This document shows positions 46,415 through 54,773 of a stretch of DNA of 64,000 nucleotides, one piece after another. The notes beneath the pieces were generated by a model that saw nothing but the letters and a program-made list of their open reading frames with translations, was not told where the DNA came from and searched no databases. The DNA is from Bdellovibrionales bacterium GWA2_49_15 (GTDB taxonomy: Bacteria; Bdellovibrionota; Bacteriovoracia; Bacteriovoracales; Bacteriovoracaceae): contig MEPP01000021.1 in the NCBI GenBank assembly GCA_001769855.1, positions 248,001-312,000 on the forward strand, given 5' to 3'. How positions within the stretch are numbered: position 1 is the stretch's first letter; every line of letters begins with the position of its first letter. The translations under genes and the position numbers were made by a program.

Positions 46415-46852
46415 ATGAAAAATGTGGCAAGTATTGGGGGACTCCTTAAAAAGATATATCGAGTCTATTCCCAGAAATTATTGATGCTTTTGGAGGCGAA
46501 GGGGTTCACTGATCTGCGGCCCTCCTTCTTGGAAGTCCTGAAGTTCATCAGCGACAGCGACGGACCTAGTATTCGGATCATTGGGGAGGCCTTGGGTTTG
46601 AAGAAGCAGACCATGACGAGCCATCTCAACGAACTGGAGAAGCGTGGGTATATTGTGAGAAAGCAAAACGAAGTCGATCGACGAGAGCAAAATGTATTTT
46701 TGACCGAGTATGGGCAAAAATTTAAATTTGCCCTCGGTCAATGTATGGAAGTGGTGGAAAAGCAGTACATTGATACAGTCGGTTTTGTTGAGTTAGAGAG
46801 AATAGATCTGCAACTTCAAAAATTTTATCAGAAGATTAAGCCGACTTCGTGA
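46415..46852 (+). CDS. MarR-family transcriptional regulator
   Basis: A 145-residue winged-helix protein: helices at 10-50, the helix-turn-helix IRIIGEALGLKKQTMTSHLNELEKRGYI (residues 54-81), the wing with the DRREQNVFLTEYG motif (RxxNxxxLT type, basic Asp-Arg-Arg), and a C-terminal helical dimer region. MarR proteins bind palindromes as dimers and usually respond to phenolic or oxidant ligands; the ligand here is unknown. A palindrome overlapping its own promoter lies just upstream. The gene converges with the rhodanese gene, with a 17-base overlap of the two 3' ends. No transporter or efflux pump is adjacent, so the regulon beyond itself is not visible. Confidence 0.9.
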   Translation: MKNVASIGGLLKKIYRVYSQKLLMLLEAKGFTDLRPSFLEVLKFISDSDGPSIRIIGEALGLKKQTMTSHLNELEKRGYIVRKQNEVDRREQNVFLTEYGQKFKFALGQCMEVVEKQYIDTVGFVELERIDLQLQKFYQKIKPTS

Positions 46853-47357
46853 GAGTATTTTTTTGCAATTCTGCAGTTTGATGTCCCGGCCAAAACTGAT
46901 GGCCGCCGCTGATATTATTAATATTAAAGAAACCTCTCTTGATCAACTGTTCGCAGGCCAGAATGGAGTTTAGCCCATCCTCAGAAATAACCAGGATTGG
47001 AGTGATGCGGCTGGGGATTTCGCCGGCCCGTTTTTCCAGAGAAAGAAAAGGAATATGGATCGCCCCTTCAATCCGTTTGGGGAGTTTATAATCAGCGCTC
47101 GAAACATCGACAATTATAAAATCCATATCCTGATTTTGGAAAATCTCATAGGCCTTGGCGGGAGATAAATCGTTATAGGGTTTTCCATACAGAATCATAT
47201 TGTCATCGACATCCTCACCATTTTTTACTCGAATCAAATGGTTGCGTTGGAGAGCGATTGAAAAATCCAGTTTCTCATCGATGCGAGAAATGTTTTTTTC
47301 AATATTGCCCAGCCTGGCATTGATTAAATCCAACATCTGAAAAACTTTTAAATCCAT
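46836..47357 (-). CDS. Rhodanese-like protein with N-terminal helix, catalytic cysteine replaced
   Basis: The ATG at 47357 has AGGAGA about seven bases upstream; an earlier ATG at 47375 lacks a site. Residues 1-45 are helical, possibly a coiled coil; residues about 65-165 form a rhodanese fold: DFIIVDVSSADYKLPKRIEGAIHIPFLSLEK, then the active-site loop, then GFFNINNISGGHQFWPG. At the loop, where sulfurtransferases have C-x4-R, the sequence is ISEDGLNS with Ser125 at the catalytic position, so it cannot carry a persulfide. It more likely acts as a binding module. It is a single gene converging with the MarR gene. Confidence 0.8.
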   Translation of the reverse strand: MDLKVFQMLDLINARLGNIEKNISRIDEKLDFSIALQRNHLIRVKNGEDVDDNMILYGKPYNDLSPAKAYEIFQNQDMDFIIVDVSSADYKLPKRIEGAIHIPFLSLEKRAGEIPSRITPILVISEDGLNSILACEQLIKRGFFNINNISGGHQFWPGHQTAELQKNTLTKSA

Positions 47358-47422
47358 GAAAGAATCTCCTGGCACGGGCCTGCCAAAGGTGACTATTCTA
47401 TTGTAAGGACGGATGCAGGCAG

Positions 47423-48361
47423 TTAAAAGACTGGGTAAAAGCTGCCAAAATCAATGCTGGCGGTGATTATGCCGGTCAAAAAGGCAGAAGTGAAGAAAAG
47501 CACGCCTTCGTACAGCCCTGTTCCGACGCCTGGTCCTTCATGATAGAGCATTTCCATCGAACTTGTGGCATTGATCCCAACGCCGTGGACTGGAGCAATG
47601 GCCCCAGATTCATCTTTGAGCTGATAAATGAGGGATAGCCCTTGCTTAAAGAGCGGGAAGACAATGGCCGACAAAATTATTTTGAGTAGAAATTGAATCG
47701 AATAACTTTTTAAATCAACTAAATCATGTTCGAGCGAGTTGGTGACAAGCAGAGTCCAACCCCAAATAAAACCGGTATAGGAAAAGGCCACCGCAATATT
47801 TTTTTGGGCCAGTAATTTGTGGAAGGGAAGTTTTGAGATGAGATCAAAACCCTTCATGGCGATTCCAGTGATGGCCATGGCGAAAAGCCAAAGGATGCTC
47901 AACATGATGAGGGATTCTTTGCTGATGCTTAAAATGGCTTTGGCCAAATAGGCCATGGCAAGAGAGTTAGCGAAGCAGATGATGCCGTAACTTAAGTTTT
48001 TACGTTTCAAAACCTCATCAGAATATTCGTATGAACCAAGAACGATGGATTCGAGAACGTACAGGGAGCCAAGGTAGAGCGCGAAGACGACAATGGTTGA
48101 CAGGAGCAGGTCATAGATCGCCATGCCAAGGCCATTCCCAAGATAGAAGTGAAAGCCTGAAAGAATAATCCCAACGCCCAGAATTCGAGAGAAAAGGTGC
48201 AAGGTATCTGCGGGATTTTTTGACGGATAAAAGGTTCTGAAAAGTTGCTTGCGTGCGGACGGGTAAAAGACAATATGTAAATATTTGTAAAAGATCAGGG
48301 TGAGGCAAATCAGGATGGCAAAAACAATGCGTATGATAAGTTTATCAAAGAGTTCATTCAT
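47423..48361 (-). CDS. Polytopic membrane protein with two DUF350-like repeats
   Basis: 312 residues with about eight hydrophobic helices. Two related halves can be seen: LLLSTIVVFALYLGSLYVLES with NLSYGIICFANSLAMAYLA, and LLKIILSAIVFPLFKQ with KNIAVAFSYTGFIWGWTLLV, each resembling the DUF350 (YjfL) unit in which a polar N-x2-A segment enters a helix. Such proteins are small membrane proteins of unknown function. A GVGINATSSMEMLYHEGPGVGTG loop and a final helix follow. Its start overlaps the stop of the preceding gene by four bases (ATGA), so it is the last gene of a four-gene minus-strand operon. The DUF350 assignment is tentative. Confidence 0.75.
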   Translation of the reverse strand: MNELFDKLIIRIVFAILICLTLIFYKYLHIVFYPSARKQLFRTFYPSKNPADTLHLFSRILGVGIILSGFHFYLGNGLGMAIYDLLLSTIVVFALYLGSLYVLESIVLGSYEYSDEVLKRKNLSYGIICFANSLAMAYLAKAILSISKESLIMLSILWLFAMAITGIAMKGFDLISKLPFHKLLAQKNIAVAFSYTGFIWGWTLLVTNSLEHDLVDLKSYSIQFLLKIILSAIVFPLFKQGLSLIYQLKDESGAIAPVHGVGINATSSMEMLYHEGPGVGTGLYEGVLFFTSAFLTGIITASIDFGSFYPVF

Positions 48362-49038
48362 AGGGATCTACTCCACGACGGTAGCCAGTAAAATTTTTTC
48401 GAATATTCTTTTATGGTGGTTCGTTGGTATTTCCCGGGAACGATATGCTCCGGCCAGTTTGTGGCGATGACGGTACCCTGCGGTCCAAATTCATTGTTCG
48501 GACCATAGAAGGGGATCTCATTATCAACATGGCTTTTGAGTTTGATGTAAAATTCATAGGTGGGGCGCCACTGGCCCCATCCCAGCTCATTCGGAAAGGC
48601 ACGGTAGGCATGAAAAAAAGTCCATATTTTTTGACCGTCGGATAGTGATTCCCAGGTGCCAAATGACGGGTCACCGATAAAAATTGCCCCAGGAGGTGAG
48701 GGAGTTAAATTTTCACTGTTGGCGTGGTCATTTCTTTGAAAGATGGCCAGTCCGAGGTAGCTTTGCATGGTTCGCCAGTAAGCCTTATTGGTTCTGACGA
48801 CGTGGATCTCGGATCTTTTAAAAGCATGAAAGGCGAGTAATTTTACATAATAAGTTTTGATGAATAGTCCGGTATAAAAAGCATCAACGACAATGAGTGA
48901 GAGGGGAGAGCCGATGAACATTCCGGGCAGCACCTGCTCATTTTGGACATAAGCTATATTTTGTTGGATGGGGGCCAGGCTTTTAGATAGACCTAAAAAT
49001 ATTAGAATCAAGATGAGATAGTACGTAAATTTTTTCAT
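48358..49038 (-). CDS. Membrane-anchored or exported hypothetical protein, 226 aa
   Basis: Begins MKKFTYYLILILIFLGLSKSLA, a signal sequence or single anchor. A second hydrophobic stretch lies near residues 45-70 (SLIVVDAFYTGLFIKTYYVKLLAF). The remaining 150 residues are soluble, rich in Trp, Tyr and Phe (FHAYRAFPNELGWGQWRPTYEFYIKLK; YWLPSWSRSL). I recognise no domain. It sits 26 bases after the HD-hydrolase gene and overlaps the polytopic membrane protein by four bases, so the two are likely a membrane pair made together. Confidence 0.75.
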   Translation of the reverse strand: MKKFTYYLILILIFLGLSKSLAPIQQNIAYVQNEQVLPGMFIGSPLSLIVVDAFYTGLFIKTYYVKLLAFHAFKRSEIHVVRTNKAYWRTMQSYLGLAIFQRNDHANSENLTPSPPGAIFIGDPSFGTWESLSDGQKIWTFFHAYRAFPNELGWGQWRPTYEFYIKLKSHVDNEIPFYGPNNEFGPQGTVIATNWPEHIVPGKYQRTTIKEYSKKFYWLPSWSRSL

Positions 49039-49064
49039 ATTATCTTACAATGATATATGGCGTG

Positions 49065-50375
49065 CTAGCTGCCAGCAAGCAGTAGGATCTTTGTTTGTAA
49101 TGCATGGGGCAATTGATTAATCTCACAGTGCAGTCTGTTCACCGCATGGGACTTGCTAAATTTTTGAAAGAGGTCTGTCGCCTCCTCAATATTAAAGTAG
49201 CTTTTCGCTTTTTGACCGGTCAGTTTGCGCACAACCTTCATCTTATATTGTTTTTGCGATTGTGATTCGCTGTAATATTTGGAGAGGCGCCCGCTGGACG
49301 AGCAACGAATAAAATCCACATTTTCTTTTGTGAGAAATTGCTGAAGTTTTTCTAAATTTGCCAGCTGCTGATCGTTGAATGATTCGTAAATTTTTGGGGG
49401 GATATTATTTTTGACAATGGCGGTGGCATGGGGATTTCTGCTGTTGCGTAGAATTTTCATGAGGTAGTGATCATCATGTTCCACATATTGTTCAATATCT
49501 GATGGGATGGCATATTCGCCCGGAGAAGTTTTGAAATACTTTAGAAGCAGCTGCTCCAAGCAGACCGAACGATAATGAAAATACACCATCACAAACATAT
49601 GATAGCGGCTCAATAAAAAGTCATCAAAGGTGACCACGGCCCTTTCGGAAATACCCAAGAAAGCGCTGCTTGCATCAATGCATATCTCTAAGTTATCAAG
49701 CAACCAATCAAGATCAAAATTTCCATAGCTGACACCGCAGAAGTAGCTGTCGCGAAGCAGGTAATCCATTCGATCACAGTCTAATTCACTGCTAATAAGT
49801 TGGTGCAGCAGGGGGAAATAATTAATACCTTCCAAGGTAAAATATTCCGGTCTGGTCGTTTGCCCGACTATCAAATCAGCGACACATCGTCGGTCAACAC
49901 CATAGATCTCTTCGACCTGCTTAAATGATTCTGCCAGTGAGCTGTCTGCGATACTTTTAATCGTGTAATCTTCATGAGTGGCCTGGCGATCCGAAAGCAG
50001 GTCTTTGCCATGCAGAAATTCTTGCGGAATTTTCAGGGCGGACAATTGGGGCATCACACTTTCGGTAGAATGACTGAGAGGGGCATGTCCGACGTCGTGC
50101 AGGAGGCACGCCAGCTTGAAGGTTTCACGCAAGCGTTGAATCTCATGATTGGGATGGCCGTTCACTTGCTCAAATAATTTATTGAAGGCCCGTTCGCCAA
50201 CGGACATCACACCAATTGAATGAATGAAACGGGTGTGAGTCGCGCCAGGAAAGATGTACTCTGAGAGTCCCAACTGTTTTATGTTTCGCAGTCGCTGGAA
50301 AAACTCTGCTCGGATTATAGGAACTTCCTGATCCAAGATATGAATATTGCCATGAACGGGGTCGCGAATTTCCAT
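49065..50375 (-). CDS. HD-domain phosphohydrolase of the SAMHD1/YwfO (COG1078) type
   Basis: 436 residues, beginning MEIRDPVHGNIHI, the usual opening of this family. The metal site is complete: H52 in THTRFIHSIGV, H93-D94 in LLHDVGHAPLSHS, and the aspartates of SSELDCDRMDYLLRDS at about 199-204. Relatives hydrolyse dNTPs or other nucleoside polyphosphates to the nucleoside plus triphosphate, often under allosteric nucleotide control. The C-terminal 150 residues are charged and less conserved. The start codon shares one base with the stop of the preceding charge-segregated protein (TAATG), so translation is coupled. Two membrane-protein genes follow in the same operon. Confidence 0.9.
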   Translation of the reverse strand: MEIRDPVHGNIHILDQEVPIIRAEFFQRLRNIKQLGLSEYIFPGATHTRFIHSIGVMSVGERAFNKLFEQVNGHPNHEIQRLRETFKLACLLHDVGHAPLSHSTESVMPQLSALKIPQEFLHGKDLLSDRQATHEDYTIKSIADSSLAESFKQVEEIYGVDRRCVADLIVGQTTRPEYFTLEGINYFPLLHQLISSELDCDRMDYLLRDSYFCGVSYGNFDLDWLLDNLEICIDASSAFLGISERAVVTFDDFLLSRYHMFVMVYFHYRSVCLEQLLLKYFKTSPGEYAIPSDIEQYVEHDDHYLMKILRNSRNPHATAIVKNNIPPKIYESFNDQQLANLEKLQQFLTKENVDFIRCSSSGRLSKYYSESQSQKQYKMKVVRKLTGQKAKSYFNIEEATDLFQKFSKSHAVNRLHCEINQLPHALQTKILLLAGS

Positions 50376-51094
50376 TACAGATCGTCTTCGCTTGCACCGC
50401 GAGCATAGAGCTCGTCCTCGTCGAGATCATCTTCCTTGCTTTCAGACTCGTCTTCGGGCTTGTCGAAGGTATCGGAGTATCCCCAGCCATAGGAACGCTG
50501 GTTCTCAGGTGTTTCTTCGTGGTCCTCGTCGGGGTTATATTCTTCAAGCTGACTATTCGCTTCTCGGCGTTTAGCGCCAAAATTGCCTTCTTCATCTTCT
50601 TCTACATCATCGAGGACCTCTTCATCTTCATCCCCTAGATGTTCAAAATCATCCAACTCTTTGTCGGCAAAATCTTTCTCATATTTATCATTGTCACTGT
50701 CCGCGTCGAAGTCCTCTTCTAACTGTCGCTCCTCCTCTTCAGACATGTCCACACTGCCTTTGGCCGCTTTATATTTCTTGATGGCCTCTTCTCGTGTTAC
50801 GAGTTTGGCTTTTTTCCCAACATTGGGCGTCGGGGCGACTTTAGCGCCAGTTTTTTTAATCTCGGCTGCTTTGGTTTTTACTTCCTTTTCCTTGCCCTTC
50901 TTGGCCACAGCTTTCTTGCTTGGGGCAGGACTCTTGCTGGCACTCGATTTTGAAGTTTTCGCGGCGGTTTTTTTGGCGATAACCTTCACGGCCTTTTTGG
51001 TGTCTTTTTTAGCTTCTTTCTTAACTTCTTTTTTTGCACCTTTTGATTTCCCTGCCGTCTTTGAGGCTGCGGGTTTTTTACTTTTTGTGGCCAT
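50375..51094 (-). CDS. Charge-segregated protein: histone-H1-like basic N-terminus, strongly acidic C-terminus
   Basis: 239 residues in two opposite halves. Residues 1-110 are Lys/Ala/Ser/Pro-rich (KKPAASKTAGKSKG, KKEVKKEAKKDTKK, KTAAKTSKSSASKS), like bacterial H1-type or AlgP-like nucleoid proteins. After a short linker containing LVTREEAIKKYKAAKG, residues 120-239 are dominated by Asp and Glu (EEEERQLEEDFDADSD, LGDEDEEVLDDVEEDEEG, DLDEDELYARGASEDDL). The ATG has AAGGA nine bases upstream and a consensus promoter about 60 bases upstream. Its stop overlaps the HD gene start. The basic part could bind nucleic acid with the acidic part shielding it; function unknown. Confidence 0.82.
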   Translation of the reverse strand: MATKSKKPAASKTAGKSKGAKKEVKKEAKKDTKKAVKVIAKKTAAKTSKSSASKSPAPSKKAVAKKGKEKEVKTKAAEIKKTGAKVAPTPNVGKKAKLVTREEAIKKYKAAKGSVDMSEEEERQLEEDFDADSDNDKYEKDFADKELDDFEHLGDEDEEVLDDVEEDEEGNFGAKRREANSQLEEYNPDEDHEETPENQRSYGWGYSDTFDKPEDESESKEDDLDEDELYARGASEDDL

Positions 51095-51143
51095 AATTCA
51101 AAATCCTTGTTGATAAAAATACCAGTTAAAGAATCTGCGCGAC

Positions 51144-51172
51144 ATTATACGCTGGCGTATTGTGGGACACAA
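51144..51172 (-). promoter_or_regulatory. Consensus sigma-70 promoter with palindromic operator, four-gene minus operon
   Basis: Read on the minus strand: -35 TTGTGT (51172-51167), 17-base spacer, perfect -10 TATAAT (51149-51144). A perfect palindrome ATACGC-CA-GCGTAT (51147-51160) covers the upstream half of the -10 box and the spacer, as a repressor operator would. It lies between the stop of the TadG-like gene and the charge-segregated gene, and would drive the operon down to 47423. Confidence 0.75.
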
Positions 51173-51202: not shown

Positions 51203-53983
51203 TTAATATTCAAAAGTTGGAAAAAGCGAAAGCTGCGTTGTGTCGAGGGAGTTTTTTGAGTTTGGCCCATCACTGCCATAGATAGAGGTTGCATTAACTC
51301 CCCCCCCCATAGAGCCCGAATTTTCAAGATAGGCCGAAAAATTGCTATTAAAGTAGCCTTGATTGGAAAGCAGGTTACTGATGCTAACGAACTTTACGGA
51401 GTAATAATTTCGTTTGGCAATAACTTCTGAATCTCCGGAAAACGGATGTTTAATTTCCCCTGTACTTTCCTCGGCTCCTTGCCGGGCCCCTGGCATAAAA
51501 CCTGTCATGAAGATACCCGGAGTTCCTGATGCCGTATTTTCTACGGTTCCCCCATCGGGCAGCACAAACTGTGAAGTAAGATATTTATCCCCACCATTAA
51601 GGGTGATTCTATTAAAGTACGTTAAAAAAGTTTCGTTAATGGGAACTATCCCGCAGCGCTTGCCTGTAGGTTGGCTCTGGAAAAAATAGGCAAATTTGCT
51701 GGCCATTGGAATTTTGGCACAGGTGGGATCAGCGGGGTCTGCTGCTGCTGCGGTGAGAATGTTACGATGGGAACTCACGTCTGGGGTTATGCCATCGGGA
51801 TAAATGAGGTTGGCTGCTTCTGTCAATCCGGCGCCATCATCGTAATCGTTGGCACCGGCCGTGGGCGTGTCTCGAATCCACTTGGCTACATTTTCAAAAC
51901 CTTTTAGGTAGGTGACGACAGCCGATGCGCTGTTATCAATATGATTGCCGATCATGGTTAACAGGTCTATGGATGACGGAAAGAGAGTCCCTGCACCGAT
52001 AAGAGGGGCGTAGAGTTGGTAATTGACGTAGGGAATGGCCAGGTCGTTCTCAACATTGCCAACCACAACACTTGGTCCTTCAAATGAGGAGCTTCCGGTT
52101 GGATAATAGGCGGGGATGAGATAGTTCATGGCTTCATATTTGGTCGGTCGTCTTATTTTGAGGATTCCCTTGGCCACATCAGTGGCCGAAGGGCCTGTGA
52201 CCGGATTCATGTCCAGTTGTGAAAAAAAGGCCTTAAACTGATCTTGCTGATAGAGTCCTTTTGCATCGTCTGCGGGGAAATCAGTCCCATCCCCGGCCTG
52301 AAAAGGTCTGCAATCACCAGTAATGGGTTTTAAGAGGATAAGGGGCAATGGCCCTGATTCATGCTTGGGCATATCCGCCCCCGGCAAATAGTCGTAAACC
52401 AAATTTGGAATGGCGAAGGCCGCGGATTGACCTGCAACGGGAGTTCCCCCAATTGTACGACCGGTATCGGTGACATAAAAGTCGAGCGTCGCCGGAATTG
52501 GTTTTCCTTTTGCAAAGCCTGCACTCAACGTACCAGGATCAAGCCCCACAGCTTCATGGACTGTCCTATAAGGGCTTTCCCCTCGCGGGTATACAGAAGA
52601 AACATCCGTTTTAAAGTTCCGAGGCCCAATTCGTCCTCCCATAGGTTTTGCCGCAGCATATGCCGTGAGAGTGATGCCATCGTTCTTTTCAAAAGGGTAA
52701 AAGAGCCCAATGAATTTGGCTTCGCCTTTAACGGCATAATAGGTAACGATATTGGGATTTTTCACAAATCCCACAGGAAGTCCCGGAACGGGAATGGCCG
52801 TCTTGGAACCAATACACTCACCTTCAGATCTGACCTCCGCGAGTTCTCCGACTGTGGAGACGAAGGCCGTGAAGAAGATGGCATAATTCATCGGGAACAT
52901 CTGAAGATCCACATAGTGTTTGGTTAAGGCCGTCGAGCCTCCCTCAGGTGGCGGGTATTCTGTCGCTGGAATAAGATAGCCACTCAAAGTGTCAGCGCCA
53001 AATGTACTTGATTTCGGCGGCAGCTCATGAAGCTTAAAAGTGCCTTTTAAATCTTGGTGATTGGGACTATCGCCCCCATCGAGATTTCTCCAGGCGGAGT
53101 AAAAGGCCTTGAGCGGTCTTTCATTTAAAGCCGAGCCGTCTTGCAGGGTGGTGCCGGGACTTGCCGAGCAGCCATCAAAGCAGATGGAGGGTATGGGAGG
53201 GCGATTGATCAGCATTTCAAGATTGCGGATTCTGAAGGCCAATTCCATGGCCTTCGGCCATACCCCGGTTCGATCGGCGGCAATGGAAAAACCCTGATTG
53301 GCGACACCGTCTTGTCCCCCTCCGGGACCAAAGGTCCAAATCATCCCCGTACCAAAGTTGAGATCAGTACGGCGGGAACAGTCTTTGGCCTTTTCGGCAA
53401 CTACAGTATTGAGAAACTCTTCCGTTTTTTCACTGATAGAAGGAAGTCCCACGGTATTGAAGCGGGGAATTCCAGGAACGTTGGCCCTGGCGCAGATATT
53501 GACACTGCTGCCTGGGTGGATACAAATGGTGGGGATATTAAATGGGTCGTAGGCCTCTTTGTGGTAGCCTAAGTTTGGTACTGCACCTCCGCCTCGGTTC
53601 GGTTCAAAGGATTTCGCGCGGAATCGGGTCATGCCTGTGCCACCGTTGGCCCCCTCATCGAGGACCGCAGGATTTCCTAGCTGACCTAAAACGTAATATT
53701 TAAACAACCACTCCTTGTAGTTGTTTCGCATTTCCCAATTCACGTAGGCGATTTGAGTTAAGAGTCGTGCTTGGCTTGCGGCCCCAGAATAGGCTGCGGC
53801 ATCCACGGCGTTTTGCAGATTGATTTTGGCCCGCACAAACAGTCCCACGTTAATGATGAAGGCAATGAGACAAATAATAATAATCAGCGTCACCCCCATG
53901 AACATGGACAGCTGACCCGCCTGGGCTGCTCTTGCTGCCAAAAAACCTGGGAGTAAACGAATTTTGCGAAGTTTTTGCATCAT
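51203..53983 (-). CDS. Large TadG-like (Flp pilus type) exported protein, 926 aa
   Basis: The N-terminus is typical of TadE/TadG-like pseudopilins: a basic start, then a helix (AGQLSMFMGVTLIIIICLIAFIINVGLFV) followed by RAKINLQNAVDAAAYSGA, the Tad-type motif, at residues 50-72. The remaining 850 residues are Gly, Pro, Asn and Thr-rich, with paired cysteines scattered (ICIHPGSSVNICARA; CFDGCSA; RCGIVP), pointing to a large extracytoplasmic domain. TadG proteins are linked to Flp pilus assembly in the cell envelope. No other tad gene is nearby. A possible minus-strand promoter (TTGACC 54044-54039, TAGCAT 54021-54016, 17 spacing) lies just upstream. Confidence 0.8.
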   Translation of the reverse strand: MMQKLRKIRLLPGFLAARAAQAGQLSMFMGVTLIIIICLIAFIINVGLFVRAKINLQNAVDAAAYSGAASQARLLTQIAYVNWEMRNNYKEWLFKYYVLGQLGNPAVLDEGANGGTGMTRFRAKSFEPNRGGGAVPNLGYHKEAYDPFNIPTICIHPGSSVNICARANVPGIPRFNTVGLPSISEKTEEFLNTVVAEKAKDCSRRTDLNFGTGMIWTFGPGGGQDGVANQGFSIAADRTGVWPKAMELAFRIRNLEMLINRPPIPSICFDGCSASPGTTLQDGSALNERPLKAFYSAWRNLDGGDSPNHQDLKGTFKLHELPPKSSTFGADTLSGYLIPATEYPPPEGGSTALTKHYVDLQMFPMNYAIFFTAFVSTVGELAEVRSEGECIGSKTAIPVPGLPVGFVKNPNIVTYYAVKGEAKFIGLFYPFEKNDGITLTAYAAAKPMGGRIGPRNFKTDVSSVYPRGESPYRTVHEAVGLDPGTLSAGFAKGKPIPATLDFYVTDTGRTIGGTPVAGQSAAFAIPNLVYDYLPGADMPKHESGPLPLILLKPITGDCRPFQAGDGTDFPADDAKGLYQQDQFKAFFSQLDMNPVTGPSATDVAKGILKIRRPTKYEAMNYLIPAYYPTGSSSFEGPSVVVGNVENDLAIPYVNYQLYAPLIGAGTLFPSSIDLLTMIGNHIDNSASAVVTYLKGFENVAKWIRDTPTAGANDYDDGAGLTEAANLIYPDGITPDVSSHRNILTAAAADPADPTCAKIPMASKFAYFFQSQPTGKRCGIVPINETFLTYFNRITLNGGDKYLTSQFVLPDGGTVENTASGTPGIFMTGFMPGARQGAEESTGEIKHPFSGDSEVIAKRNYYSVKFVSISNLLSNQGYFNSNFSAYLENSGSMGGGVNATSIYGSDGPNSKNSLDTTQLSLFPTFEY

Positions 53984-54353: not shown

Positions 54354-54773
54354 GTGAAAGCTAACCATAAAGACCCCCAGATACATCCCATGATCGAGTT
54401 ACGAACCTACAAAGTGAAAAATTCGGCCTTGGATTTTTACTGTCCTTTGTGCCGCATGGAGCGCCAGGTCTCTTGCCGGGTCGGTCTTTCCCCCCTGAAT
54501 TATGTCCAAATTACAATGGTGTCATTTGTTTTGGTCACCCTAACTTTTTCCAGAATGGAAGCCATTGCCTTGGTATGGCCTTTTTTAGTCTGGGCCAGCT
54601 TTGAAATTGCTCGACGCTTGCTTTTTAAGAGAGATGTACCTTGTCCTCATTGCGGTTTTGATGCGACATGGTATAAAAGGGACGTCAAGATGGCCCGCAA
54701 ACTCGTGGCTGAATTCTGGGAAAAGAAAAAATCTCCTTCTCCGCCGACTAAAATTTCACACCCAAATAAGTAG
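54354..54773 (+). CDS. Hypothetical membrane protein with two CxxC pairs, 139 aa
   Basis: Translation starts at GTG with GGAG ten bases upstream. The protein has a CPLCRM pair at about residue 36, a hydrophobic stretch of roughly 40 residues (VQITMVSFVLVTLTF and AIALVWPFLVWASFEIA, one or two helices), and a second pair CPHCG near residue 101, then a basic tail ending in KSPSPPTKISHPNK. The two CxxC pairs could jointly bind zinc as a rubredoxin-like knuckle on the cytoplasmic face. I do not recognise a family. It is followed by ssb after about 130 bases. Confidence 0.68.
   Translation: MKANHKDPQIHPMIELRTYKVKNSALDFYCPLCRMERQVSCRVGLSPLNYVQITMVSFVLVTLTFSRMEAIALVWPFLVWASFEIARRLLFKRDVPCPHCGFDATWYKRDVKMARKLVAEFWEKKKSPSPPTKISHPNK

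Follow-up and report, generated by a model that had tools for sequence, protein, structure and literature searches.

A candidate two-module operon in Bacteriovoracaceae, joining an H1-like protein and an HD hydrolase with an anchored protein–DUF350 pair

A run of minus-strand genes was analysed in a window of 64,000 nucleotides (contig MEPP01000021.1, positions 248,001 to 312,000) from the genome of Bdellovibrionales bacterium GWA2_49_15 (4.86 Mb; family Bacteriovoracaceae, labelled f1, phylum Bdellovibrionota; near relatives: the metagenome-assembled genomes behind L035 and L036). Four of these genes, encoding a charge-segregated protein (Chg), an HD-domain hydrolase (HD), an anchored protein (Anch) and a DUF350 protein (D350), had been taken in a preliminary description for a single system of nucleotide turnover at the membrane. 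This claim was not supported, since the Anch-D350 pair and HD separate both ways among relatives, namely in the genera g15 and g25 and in genome G042. The locus is best explained, with moderate confidence, by two separable units, a nucleoid and deoxynucleoside triphosphate (dNTP) pool module and an inner-membrane DUF350 module. Of the proposed four-gene operon, the four genes themselves were found as described, but the same-strand run is longer, with a TadE/G-like gene (Tad) ahead and a rhodanese-like gene (Rhod) behind, both conserved neighbours; on an evenly balanced judgement, the four genes are the middle part of a longer operon made of the two modules.

Gene order inside and outside Bacteriovoracaceae

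Gene presence was counted in 95 family genomes, family loci were taken from 25 relatives in one scan, and background counts rest on fetched loci. Designations such as f1, f6, g15 and g25 are analysis labels for families and genera, and G and L handles denote genomes and loci. The order in the family was ZnR (opposite strand), Tad, Chg, HD, Anch, D350 and Rhod, followed by MarR, RodA and PBP2 on the other strand; most relatives carried an additional glutaredoxin-like gene of 82–86 residues (Grx, PF00462/PF13417) between Chg and HD. Grx, which contains a CPxC motif (L037–L056), was absent from the window's genus, g25 and some others.

D350 was present in 85 of the 95 genomes, Anch in 84, full-length HD in 84, Anch together with D350 in 83, and HD, Anch and D350 in 78. 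For the test of co-occurrence and gene order that the preliminary description had proposed, run on these 95 genomes, conserved order was obtained: Anch and D350 were adjacent in 82 of the 83 genomes with both (the exception being a contig end; median gap −4 in fetched loci), and HD and Anch in 78 of 79 (their separation in G042 is real). Both adjacencies occurred more often than by chance.

The four g15 genomes with loci read (G014, G082, G089, G093; 4 loci) had the arrangement Tad-Chg-Grx-HD-Rhod with Anch and D350 cleanly missing, and a fifth g15 genome (G234) was likewise without Anch and D350. The opposite state was found in g25 (G025, G063), with Tad, a charged gene, Anch, D350 and Rhod present and Grx and HD absent. 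In G042, Anch-D350-Rhod was located beside queC-like and phosphomannomutase-like genes, while HD was on another contig, together with Tad and a charged gene partly read as N. From these cases and that of G026 (described below), Anch-D350 is regarded as one unit and HD as another. Anch-D350 is a tight pair restricted to the window's family; neither Anch nor this D350 type was found outside f1 among 192 phylum genomes.

The g15 loci contain, in addition, a large gene between Rhod and MarR (L080:5834–7816, L081:5461–7425, L082:4978–6957), which we take, by eye from L080, to encode a FeoB-like ferrous iron transporter.

Outside the family, the neighbours of HD were read in 60 loci (HD score > 300 bits), and a filter for H1-like composition was applied to 827 open reading frames (ORFs) of at least 100 aa and to shorter ones. 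In 29 of the 60 loci (f8 16/16, f12 10/10, f15 1/1, f19 1/1, f20 1/2), HD was immediately preceded, in the same orientation, by a Lys/Ala-rich H1-like ORF; the 60 loci contained 30 H1-like ORFs altogether, 29 of them in this position. These ORFs had the same layout as Chg (MAKKK...AAPKK..., mostly with an acidic tail), and a Tad-like protein was encoded upstream in 28 of the 29 linked loci. Downstream of HD, gene content varied by family while Tad-Chg-HD held. On the HD tree, a quick tree with uncertain root, the linked state corresponded to 3 changes. Most simply, an old Tad-Chg-HD cluster would have been broken in some lineages and extended by Grx and Anch-D350-Rhod in the window's family.

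Full-length HD relatives were found in most of the phylum by HD profile search, and HD is a phylum-wide core gene. The preliminary description had accepted that a plain housekeeping dNTPase with unlinked neighbours would speak against it, and this applied in part: HD is a core gene, unlinked in f6 and others, yet the link with the charged protein holds up and recurs in five further families.

Encoded proteins and locus layout

In Chg, residues 1–112 carry a net charge of +31 (38 Lys) and the remainder −45 (56 Asp + Glu), a segregation reached in 0 of 20,000 shuffles; the charge segregation of the preliminary description is real. The Lys/Ala-rich low-complexity domain characteristic of bacterial histone H1-like proteins is present, and Chg is likely a nucleoid protein with predicted DNA binding. 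In family relatives, Chg carries long runs of KKxAKK repeats that differ in length, and its acidic C half has the conserved motif YGWGY.D.FDKP.D...DEDELYA, for which a profile gave no match outside f1 in the phylum search. The contigs of L040, L041, L042, L045, L054 and L056 start in or near the Lys-rich repeats, which appear to break assemblies in many relatives and can mimic gene absence.

HD matched Pfam PF01966 above the cut-off (E 6.6e-6), in agreement with its first designation as an HD hydrolase, and gave PDB matches to 2hek (E 4e-35), 2o6i (EF1143; E 2e-33) and SAMHD1 (E ~1e-18). The metal ligands of EF1143 correspond in the alignment to H52, H93-D94 and D201 of HD, and all four are conserved; these residues were invariant in 24 family members, and the HD and D201 motifs were kept in 79/79 and R49–H52 in 77/79 sequences. 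The HD core and the motif DxDRxDYxxRD are shared with the EF1143/SAMHD1 enzymes. EF1143 is a tetrameric dNTPase (PMC8177086), and HD, judged by its residues, is likely a dNTPase of this type. Its score for Dgt (dGTP triphosphohydrolase, TIGR01353), 30.9 bits, was far short of the NCBIfam cut-off of 152. Also encoded in the window's genome are a Dgt-like protein (L004) and a second HD protein of similar type (485 aa, L002), which makes it uncertain that HD serves bulk dNTP housekeeping alone.

For Anch, AlphaFold2 gave an N-terminal helix (residues 2–21) followed by a confident domain (~31–190, block pLDDT 81–96), which supports its description as an anchored protein. A scan of all 25 members yielded no Pfam match backed by more than one of them, and a PDB fold search nothing better than E 0.4. 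PDB profile search gave a single match, weak and short, with a "tube protein" (59 residues, E 0.004), which was treated as chance.

D350 matched PF03994 in two stretches (E 1.6e-14, 54.6 bits, gathering cut-off 26 bits), as its earlier name DUF350-like had implied, and both DUF350 halves matched in many family genomes. The AlphaFold2 model consisted of eight long helices (mean pLDDT 78), and the first eight residues, MNELFDKL, were invariant in 24 sequences; a PDB fold search returned nothing better than E 0.7, and a PDB profile search no match. The positive loops suggest that both ends of D350, the MNELFDKL start and an invariant FYP end, face the periplasm. In G026 (L087:7727–8737) the folded domain of Anch is deleted and an Anch-type anchor is fused to the D350 N-terminus, an arrangement that fits this topology and would be expected with a periplasmic N-terminus. 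G036 (L088:9867–11582) encodes a 571-residue double-length DUF350 protein, apparently of two tandem 8-TM (transmembrane helix) copies.

Rhod has Ser131 in place of the catalytic Cys, invariant in 13/13 aligned sequences; for this reason it is probably no sulfurtransferase, and the family probably conserves it as a rhodanese without catalytic activity. Its true start is probably the ATG at 47357.

Table 1 Features of the locus (positions in the window)
Feature	Position	Strand	Description
Tad	51203..53983	-	Protein with TadE/G-like N-terminal membrane domain (PF13400, E 6.5e-9); ancient gene upstream of Chg
12-base palindrome TACGCCAGCGTA	51148..51159	.	Left arm unconserved; probably no operator
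Promoter, sigma-70-like, TTGTGT-N17-TATAAT	51144..51172	-	Ahead of Chg
Chg	50375..51094	-	239 aa; charge-segregated, Lys/Ala-rich H1-like N half and acidic C half
HD	49065..50375	-	436 aa; HD phosphohydrolase, likely of SAMHD1/EF1143 type; phylum-wide
Anch	48358..49038	-	226 aa; N-terminal membrane anchor and ~170-residue periplasmic domain (predicted); f1-restricted family
D350	47423..48361	-	312 aa; tandem DUF350, 8 predicted TM helices; family-restricted type
Rhod	46836..47375	-	N-terminal coiled-coil-like part and rhodanese-like domain with an invariant Ser at the position of the catalytic Cys; conserved gene following D350

The order of the four minus-strand genes and their joints, as first described, were confirmed in the ORFs and the sequence: Chg and HD overlap by one base (TAATG), HD and Anch are separated by a 26-base gap, and Anch and D350 overlap by four bases (ATGA). 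The promoter had been called a consensus promoter, which is correct for the −10 element (TATAAT, perfect) and not for the −35 element (TTGTGT, 3/6 match); it lay below the threshold of a strict scan and was unlisted there. The −10 element, the 17-base spacing and TTGTNT are kept in the two nearest relatives (L035, L036), one −35 position varying, and this conservation supports the promoter call. The operator-like palindrome (TACGC-CA-GCGTA, 51159–51148) can be read in the window, but L035 and L036 do not keep its left arm; an operator role was rejected and the palindrome is probably due to chance. Divergent from Tad, a small gene with two possible zinc-ribbon halves (ZnR, 54354–54773) is conserved family-wide.

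Proposed roles and alternative explanations

The first module, which would be old at the level of the phylum, would comprise the Tad-like protein, Chg and HD. The lysine-rich half of Chg would bind the nucleoid, and its acidic half may limit or regulate this binding, or bind partners; the co-expressed HD would hydrolyse dNTPs to deoxynucleosides and triphosphate, possibly under growth-phase regulation. In a non-replicating cell, the dNTP supply would thus be held down and the DNA compacted or organised. Predators replicate only inside prey, and a quiescence role of this module is plausible in predators with such a life style. In Caulobacter, dNTP removal is known to be linked to the cell-cycle progression of non-replicating cells (PMC12186491). 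The second module, confined to Bacteriovoracaceae, would consist of Anch and the 8-TM D350 as a pair in the inner membrane, with the Anch domain in the periplasm and usually followed by the putatively inactive rhodanese-like protein. By analogy with YjfL/DUF350 proteins, the function of the pair would probably be one of the envelope, needing neither HD nor Chg. A narrower version is a two-component replication-quiescence module of Chg and HD in predatory and related Bdellovibrionota (DNA compacted or marked by an H1-like nucleoid protein whose acidic tail is self-regulating, and dNTPs drained in non-replicating cells), co-expressed with a new inner-membrane Anch-DUF350 complex in Bacteriovoracaceae; it is tentative and rather unlikely. 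No link between an H1-like protein and a dNTPase in Bdellovibrionota was found in a literature search that left subscription journals and preprints mostly outside.

Several observations weigh against the division into two functional modules. The flanking genes ZnR, Tad, Rhod, MarR, RodA and PBP2 are nearly as conserved in the family as the four genes themselves, so that order within the family is weak evidence for joint function, and losses of adjacent genes may have been single deletions. No H1-like gene was found beside HD in f6 (taken to be Bdellovibrionaceae-like), f9, f11, f18 and f21–f23, so HD can work alone. The acidic tail has only a few residues in some f8 genomes, and the common origin of the Chg proteins outside the family, based on composition and position, is no more than likely.

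The constant order of Tad, ZnR, Rhod, MarR, RodA and PBP2 within the family, together with the core-gene status of HD, would suit an explanation by neighbourhood only, i.e. a slowly rearranging housekeeping region with a shared transcript and no shared function. We consider this somewhat unlikely, because outside the family Tad-Chg-HD persists while the genes downstream of HD change, 29 of the 30 H1-like ORFs are located directly ahead of HD, and Anch and D350 share a 4-base overlap, moved jointly in G042 and were lost jointly in g15.

It is improbable that Chg serves the Tad-like surface or envelope protein, or the positioning of storage granules as in AlgP/PhaF, with HD as merely a frequent neighbour. 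Tad and the H1-like gene are still together in f17 and f24 with HD elsewhere, and Tad is ahead of Chg in 28/29 loci, as expected from such a role; Tad without Chg in f6, f11, f3 and others, however, indicates that Tad is independent of Chg. The H1-like tail of AlgP does position polyphosphate granules (PMC9239181), but a granule-binding domain was not seen in Chg. In L236 and L240 (f17, f24), the gene immediately behind Tad and the H1-like gene is not HD but, by eye, presumably rpsT (ribosomal protein S20).

A single four-gene membrane nucleotide module, in which HD makes or removes a signal sensed by DUF350-Anch and Chg acts on nucleic acid, was judged distinctly improbable. The 78 of 95 family genomes with HD, Anch and D350, the adjacency of HD and Anch in 78 of 79, and, in several genomes, an overlap of 4 bases or a near-contact of these two genes are consistent with it, but HD and Chg occur without the Anch-D350 pair in g15 and in five other families, the pair occurs without HD in g25, and G042 has them apart.

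An anti-phage defence cassette acting by dNTP depletion was rejected as of negligible probability, because the PADLOC dGTPase match (E 7.5e-8) is weak and partial, no other defence gene was matched by PADLOC, and HD belongs to the core genes of the phylum, with a tree that follows the families and a stable, non-patchy locus, although dGTPase-type defence enzymes exist.

With the alternatives weighed, two separable modules in one gene run remain our preferred reading. The H1-like gene beside a SAMHD1-like gene in at least six families suggests that DNA packaging is tied to control of the dNTP pool; if true, this tie could help to explain the non-replicating, free-swimming predator cell.

Comparison with known systems

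DUF350 is a widespread membrane family without known function, for which the Anch-D350 pair offers a compact handle, as its partner is almost always adjacent and the G026 fusion hints at the topology. Classical DUF350 operons were described among PSP-related systems, in which DUF350 adjoins lipoproteins (PMC11237479). In Bdellovibrionota, the classical operon (band-7, DUF4178, DUF350, membrane spermidine synthase, amine oxidase) was found as a separate locus, also in the window's family (L131, L136, L137). As in the YjfL/DUF350 envelope-stress operons, D350 has the known 8-TM double form and stands beside an exported or anchored partner (PMC11237479); unlike there, band-7/PspA, DUF4178 and spermidine synthase genes were absent around the window's D350 gene, while they were present around other DUF350 genes. 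In L138:6337–7889 and L139:1316–2875, a different DUF350 protein (172–173 aa) overlaps or abuts a 345-residue exported protein, which in L138 had no Pfam match. The layout of Anch-D350 matches this recurrent pairing of DUF350 with exported partners, be they lipoproteins or the proteins of L138 and L139.

A DUF350 gene is also located near the gene of a DNA-binding protein in Leptospira, where hlp (an FtF histone) has DUF350, SMC and methionine aminopeptidase genes nearby (PMC12701072). The DNA-binding protein is a different one and no HD enzyme is mentioned there; the likeness is probably a coincidence.

With AlgP, PhaF and Hc2, Chg has in common the long Lys/Ala repeats of variable length and the likely contact with DNA, which is made by the H1-like tails in AlgP and PhaF (PMC9239181). 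It differs from them in having the repeats at the N-terminus, with an acidic tail behind them (which has a conserved motif of its own in the window's family), and in its tie to an HD enzyme. HD resembles the EF1143/SAMHD1 dNTP triphosphohydrolases (COG1078-like) in its catalytic core and metal ligands. Unlike in these enzymes, about 120 C-terminal residues lie beyond the coverage of the PDB matches of HD, whose activity is predicted by sequence, and its gene keeps company with that of an H1-like protein in six families.

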